The notes beneath the pieces are model-generated. The model worked only from the letters and a program-made list of their open reading frames with translations, searched no databases and had not been told where the DNA came from. From contig JADDQF010000130.1 of NCBI GenBank assembly GCA_016781505.1, positions 53,637 to 117,636 of the forward strand: a stretch of 64,000 bases of DNA, given 5' to 3'. This DNA is from a bacterium. Its GTDB lineage: Bacteria > Chloroflexota > Chloroflexia > Chloroflexales > Kallotenuaceae. The translations under genes were made by a program, and so were the position numbers. Of this stretch, positions 62,340 through 62,536 are shown in pieces; positions within the stretch are counted from its first letter, which is position 1; each line of letters begins with the position of its first letter.

Positions 62340-62370
62340 AGAAACCCGTGCTGCAACAGCACGGGTTTCT
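62340..62370 (-). terminator. Intrinsic terminator of the micro-gene
   Basis: On the minus strand AGAAACCCGTGCTG pairs perfectly with CAGCACGGGTTTCT (14 bp) around TTG, followed by TGTTTT. It ends the transcript that contains the 14-codon ORF, 28 bp downstream of its stop. Confidence 0.85.
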
Positions 62371-62398
62371 ATCGGTTCAGAAGGACATCGCCTTGAGG

Positions 62399-62443
62399 CT
62401 ACTTGGTAACCTTCGCGGCGATGCCCGAACGCTTGTCACTCAT
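62399..62443 (-). CDS. Micro-ORF, 14 residues, with perfect Shine-Dalgarno
   Basis: ATG 62443 to TAG 62399-62401 encodes MSDKRSGIAAKVTK. AAGGAGGTGAT lies 8 nt before the ATG, a near-complete anti-16S match. A second ATG six bases upstream is only 2 nt from the Shine-Dalgarno, so 62443 is the likelier start. The ORF has its own sigma-70 promoter (TTGACA, 17 bp, TACACT) and a strong terminator, so the transcript is about 160 nt. It could be a small basic protein, a leader peptide without target, or a regulatory RNA with a decoy ORF. No homologue is known to me. Confidence 0.65.
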   Translation of the reverse strand: MSDKRSGIAAKVTK

Positions 62444-62507
62444 GGGCATCACCTCCTTCATCCCTGGTCGGTACGAGTGTCGCTTGGATGGGGCGAGCAC
62501 GGAGGAT

Positions 62508-62536
62508 AGTGTACCTGAGCCCACGGACGTTGTCAA
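62508..62536 (-). promoter_or_regulatory. Consensus sigma-70 promoter of the micro-gene
   Basis: On the minus strand a perfect TTGACA (62531-62536), a 17-bp spacer and TACACT (62508-62513). The best promoter in the window. The transcript would start near 62501 with a leader of about 58 nt before the ATG. Confidence 0.8.

Follow-up and report, generated by a model that had tools for sequence, protein, structure and literature searches.

What does a free-standing gene do if its open reading frame (ORF) has only 14 codons, while its signals for transcription and translation are strong? The question is raised by a small element in a 64,000-nucleotide stretch (termed here the window) of contig JADDQF010000130.1, from a bacterium of the Chloroflexota family Kallotenuaceae. 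It is encoded on the minus strand, between the genes for a GH1 beta-glucosidase and for OsmC. This unannotated small gene with strong signals is real, and an RNA function is likely for it. The reading that we favor, which comes close to but falls short of an even chance, is that it specifies a free-standing, bistable RNA that would be operated by ribosomes and would have its output at the RNA level; translation seems to be the switch, and the peptide seems not to matter. At the level of comparative sequence, the element is shown to have a conserved promoter, a perfect Shine-Dalgarno (SD) sequence, a kept short frame, arms for two mutually exclusive helices, and its own terminator.

The promoter, SD sequence, 14-codon ORF and 14-bp terminator described in the initial annotation are all confirmed, on the minus strand. 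Beyond these, a segment of the ORF is complementary to the SD region that precedes it, the 3′ untranslated region (UTR) holds a complement of that ORF segment, and the element occurs a second time in the genome. In the order of transcription, the parts of the window copy are as follows.

62508..62536, minus strand: sigma-70-type promoter TTGACA-17-TACACT, with 10 of 12 matches to the consensus
62463..62471, minus strand: 5′ UTR motif CCGNNCAGG, directly before the SD sequence, in conserved alignment columns
62448..62458, minus strand: perfect extended SD sequence AAGGAGGTGAT, with almost no variation in 100 sequences
62444..62453, minus strand: arm A (GGTGATGCCC), the 3′ half of the SD sequence plus the spacer, from alignment pairing
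62399..62443, minus strand: 14-codon ORF MSDKRSGIAAKVTK with stop codon TAG, its frame kept and its peptide not
62417..62426, minus strand: arm B (GGGCATCGCC), within the ORF, complementary to both arm A and arm C, from alignment pairing
62408..62413, minus strand: SD-like AAGGTT ahead of the stop codon, a weak form of the GAGGT of relatives
62383..62392, minus strand: arm C (GGCGATGTCC), 3′ of the stop codon, complementary to arm B, from alignment pairing
62340..62370, minus strand: intrinsic terminator with a 14-bp stem

The signals for expression are retained across the family. Over 20 kb, promoter-like sites of this quality are expected by chance, but in 133 relatives the promoter has a mean of 2.5 mismatches in 12 positions, compared with 5.2 in shuffled sequences; terminators are present in 107 of these relatives, compared with 6.6 after shuffling. 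The predicted transcript of about 165 nt folds with an energy of −72.1 kcal/mol (shuffled, −52.1 ± 4.1 kcal/mol; z = −4.8). The SD sequence is complementary to the 16S rRNA 3′ end (GGATCACCTCCTTTCT, as read in a relative) and is the sole perfect match to AAGGAGGTGAT in the window, with one further site at one mismatch. The initial annotation had rated every signal above that of any other gene in the window; this holds for the SD sequence, for which alone the comparison was made. The ORF of the window copy is very probably translated.

Pairing of arms A and B buries the SD sequence, whereas pairing of arms B and C frees it, and the two helices are mutually exclusive via the shared arm B. In an alignment of 31 sequences, A:B is paired in 310 of 310 cells, the only variation being G-U/A-U or G-C/G-U exchanges, and B:C is paired in 94.1% of cells, 5 of its 11 pairs showing double changes. 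An alignment of 100 sequences has 94.7% of A:B cells and 94.6% of B:C cells paired, double changes at every one of the 11 B:C pairs, and a B:C covariation of 0.414 (shuffled, 0.185 ± 0.010); the model used to fit it contains B:C and not A:B, which somewhat favors B:C. Slid controls of arm pairing in the same alignment collapse. The best support for A:B comes from distant members, where a change in arm A is matched by one in arm B (GCTA with TAGC, GCGA with TCGC, and GTGCAG with CTGCAC).

The same arms could serve a dual-function small RNA (sRNA) that regulates mRNAs in trans via arm B, which contains the anti-SD-like GGGCAUCACC, or via arm C, and in which ORF translation chooses the free arm. 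In keeping with this, the gene is free-standing with its own promoter and terminator, arm B resembles an anti-SD sequence, and, when B is paired, either A or C is always free. However, B and C change freely together, a change that conserved targets in trans would resist, and genome sites for GGTGATGCCC gave nothing interpretable, so that regulation in trans appears unlikely. SgrS/SgrT and RNAIII are dual-function small RNAs of this general type; the element shares with them a free-standing small transcript and a short ORF, but differs in that its peptide is not conserved. A dual-function small RNA had also been named in the initial annotation; in the usual sense, with a peptide acting beside base-pairing in trans, it is possible.

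The ORF itself shows that its frame is kept. In 128 of 135 ORFs, AUG and arm B are 11, 14, 17, 20 or 23 nt apart, always 2 modulo 3; of the other seven, one is an unrelated Rhizobium match and the rest are distant or doubtful members. By contrast, all phases occur in the distance from the stop codon to arm C. The AUG-to-B length varies inside several families, which indicates several independent indels, perhaps ten by the authors' own count rather than by a formal tree test, all in multiples of three. The peptide is not kept in the same way. Between close relatives, the ratio of nonsynonymous to synonymous substitution rates (dN/dS) is 1.08 for the codons preceding arm B, 0.84 for those following it, and 0.47 inside it, where pairing confounds the estimate; there is no excess of third-position substitutions in the ORFs. 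Peptide residues in arm B follow the base pairing (GIT to SIT, GIT to RIE), and the peptides are hydrophilic and variable. Translation itself, rather than the peptide, therefore appears to be selected, and on these comparisons the ribosome traffic on the RNA is probably what matters.

These data bear directly on the proposal, made in the initial annotation, of an unannotated micro-protein, in which a regulatory or structural peptide of 14–16 residues would be the product and the mRNA fold would tune its translation. The perfect SD sequence and the kept frame are as such a gene should have them, and a pattern M-S-S....G-I/V-T/A-x-E-V near the C terminus recurs in many families. The E-V of this pattern, however, coincides with the SD-like GAGGT, which is stronger than its synonymous versions, and the substitution ratios near 1 outside arm B, the missing third-position excess and the dependence of arm B residues on pairing all speak against a conserved peptide. 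A micro-protein is thus quite improbable. The same annotation had reasoned that conservation of the structure only would make the element a non-coding RNA; the RNA structure is indeed conserved, but the frame is kept as well, so the term non-coding does not quite fit.

The codon use of the ORFs is also unusual. Among 134 family members, AGT accounts for 65% of Ser codons (11% in neighboring genes), UGA ends 5 ORFs (40% of neighboring genes) and UAG ends 95 (35% of neighboring genes), and the anti-SD affinity of the last codons is −8.0, compared with −5.1 for shuffled and −6.1 for synonymous sequences; because the sequences are related, it is the effect sizes rather than p-values that carry weight in these comparisons. 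The SD-like stretch before the stop codon and the scarcity of UGA point to a ribosome that may be held there at termination and released by release factor 1 (RF1).

A ribosome-operated gate could work in the following manner. As the RNA emerges, A would pair with B and the SD sequence would be hidden; once C has been made, the B:C hairpin, which is more stable and carries the stop codon close to its tip, would form and free the SD sequence. A ribosome at the start codon would cover A and leave B:C intact. After 14 codons it would reach the stop codon, between B and C, and B, released behind it, would re-pair with A, so that a second ribosome would be barred until the terminating one, perhaps held by the SD-like stretch and freed by RF1, has left. 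One ribosome would thus be admitted at a time, and the RNA fold would report both initiation and termination. The output would then be neither the peptide nor a downstream gene; it may be that of a decoy for 30S subunits or ribosomes, of a capacity sensor, or of a trans-acting or decay state under ribosome control.

Folding of the window RNA with a ribosome-sized block gives A:B when the block is placed at the stop codon and B:C when it is placed at the start codon, which would mean that the ORF length places B between an initiating and a terminating ribosome, and which speaks for the gate. Several points weigh against it. The footprint argument is geometric, with assumed edges. The predicted energies of the two helices in the window RNA are close (−24.0 kcal/mol for A:B with the 5′ flank, −26.6 kcal/mol for B:C), and one predicted full-length fold keeps A:B. 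Mean openness of the SD sequence is 0.33 in full-length RNAs and 0.26 in RNAs truncated at B, and is higher in the former in only 49 of 83 cases. Covariation of A:B is sparse because arm A is nearly invariant. Finally, the window copy carries a weak SD-like stretch, and GAGG is lacking in 43 of 134 ORFs.

A more specific form of the gate, in which a housekeeping RNA of Chloroflexota senses the translation machinery (free 30S subunits, initiation, or termination by RF1) as single ribosomes flip its fold, with an output at the RNA level, is possible but rather doubtful. If it is true, a free-standing sensor of the ribosome cycle would be a class of regulator not described before. With translation as the apparent switch and a peptide that seems not to matter, initiation and termination of ribosomes on one tiny RNA become directly testable, and the element may show how translation capacity is sensed in these bacteria. 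The autoregulatory frameshift site of prfB, the gene for release factor 2 (RF2), offers a parallel: there an SD-like sequence near the stop codon engages the ribosome, and the outcome depends on the release factor. The element shares the SD-like sequence near the stop codon and, as proposed here, the dependence on a release factor, but no frameshift is seen in it, its stop codons are UAG or UAA rather than UGA, and it is unlinked to a release-factor gene.

The three-arm logic with a terminator, and alternative helices that share an arm inside the ORF, also recall attenuators, and in the window the OsmC gene is co-directional with the element, as it should be if the ORF were a leader peptide controlling a downstream gene. 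Across loci, however, the downstream genes are mostly unrelated, 49 being co-directional and 46 opposite, the next gene in several loci is a convergent bL25 gene or an rRNA operon, and the terminator shares no sequence with arms A to C. Since the downstream genes vary and their orientation is random, the element is not a leader; control of OsmC or another gene in this way is largely refuted, and an attenuator is very improbable. Leader peptides of the erm type act by translational attenuation and control a co-transcribed methyltransferase gene (PMC5118997). The element has in common with them a short ORF with its own SD sequence, alternative hairpins, and the position of a ribosome on the ORF as the choice between hairpins, but it has no conserved downstream gene, and the SD sequence that is hidden is that of the ORF itself.

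The anti-SD sequence inside the ORF, which hides the SD sequence as in aapA3 of Helicobacter pylori (PMC6733600), could likewise indicate a type I toxin mRNA with metastable SD-hiding hairpins. The aapA3 mRNA encodes a toxin and ends in a translationally inert state, and IsoA3 is its antisense RNA (PMC6733600). Metastable SD-hiding hairpins, an anti-SD sequence within the ORF and support from covariation are common to both, whereas the final fold of the element is predicted to favor B:C and its peptide is unconstrained. A toxin module is also at odds with a short, hydrophilic peptide and a nearly universal single copy. Antisense promoters on the element are not enriched over shuffled sequences (4.7 compared with 4.6 mismatches), antisense RNA from another type of promoter being possible, and the type I toxin was rejected because no antisense promoter is conserved; only a very small chance is left to it. 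The element is thus filed with neither the erm leaders nor aapA3, because searches for a downstream gene conserved with it and for an antisense promoter were both negative.

The covariance search of Chloroflexota relatives suggested in the initial annotation did recover a family. Related cores were found by blastn in 44 of 60 genomes searched, and a covariance model built from 31 sequences and run on 158 genomes of the class of the window organism matched in 130 of them (85 of the 93 good ones), in 14 families and nearly always as a single copy. A broader model matches in 18 genomes outside the class, and several further Chloroflexota families have the element; most of these matches were read and proved to be homologs with rewritten arms, although L151 and L153, the weakest, are doubtful. 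Of 118 genomes in the class of genome G162, only 8 give matches, all weak; six of these loci have the same SD sequence, a short ORF and, ahead of the stop codon, GGAGGTG, and two lack them. Named records with the element include Chloroflexus islandicus, Oscillochloris, Chloroploca, Viridilinea, Roseiflexus, Kouleothrix, Sphaerobacter and Anaerolineales. Outside Chloroflexota, the pattern matches listed (Bacillota, Bacteroidota, Pseudomonadota and others) reach no more than 21.6 bits, compared with at least 27.5 bits for Chloroflexota loci, and the matches listed are taken as chance.

The element is thus present at about one copy per genome throughout a bacterial class and is traceable in other classes of the phylum, yet no RNA or protein family library that was searched contains it. 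Rfam release 15 gave no match at the gathering threshold, neither in the window nor for the element at 12 relative loci, the best score below threshold being Leu_leader (22.5, with 50 required), and the protein family libraries searched gave no match either. The Chloroflexi-1 motif (RF01698), listed by Weinberg et al. 2010 (PMC2864571), is in Rfam, but does not match the window element. No description was found in the literature searched (open papers only), and in that literature the family is undescribed.

The second copy in the same genome (87% identity by blastn; contig C81, L034, G000:C81:16377-16533) follows a LysM lipoprotein gene (PF01476), as do copies at 28 of 96 loci. The C81 copy is therefore read as the ancestral site and the window copy as an extra, displaced paralog, whose arms B and C pair throughout and have diverged from the C81 arms in step with each other. 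The LysM lipoprotein gene was rejected as a conserved operon partner, its upstream position being read as this ancestral site instead.

Several loci depart from the common arrangement. In the class of G162, L302–L304 and L306–L308 have longer mini-ORFs of about 18–24 codons, with the same SD sequence and GGAGGTG 11 nt before the stop codon. In L105–L108, L110–L114 and L160, the start codon is 4 nt farther from the SD sequence (AAGGAGGTGATGCCNNNNATG), an unusual spacing that is kept across those families. In Herpetosiphon-like genomes (L050, L051, L057), the element and an rRNA operon stand tail to tail, which explains why it lies near contig ends in these draft assemblies; the rRNA genes adjoin it there and not elsewhere, and a general link to rRNA was rejected. 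At L119 (G127:C533:5794-5950), two overlapping tail-to-tail copies lie near a contig end, possibly as an inverted duplication or an assembly artefact.
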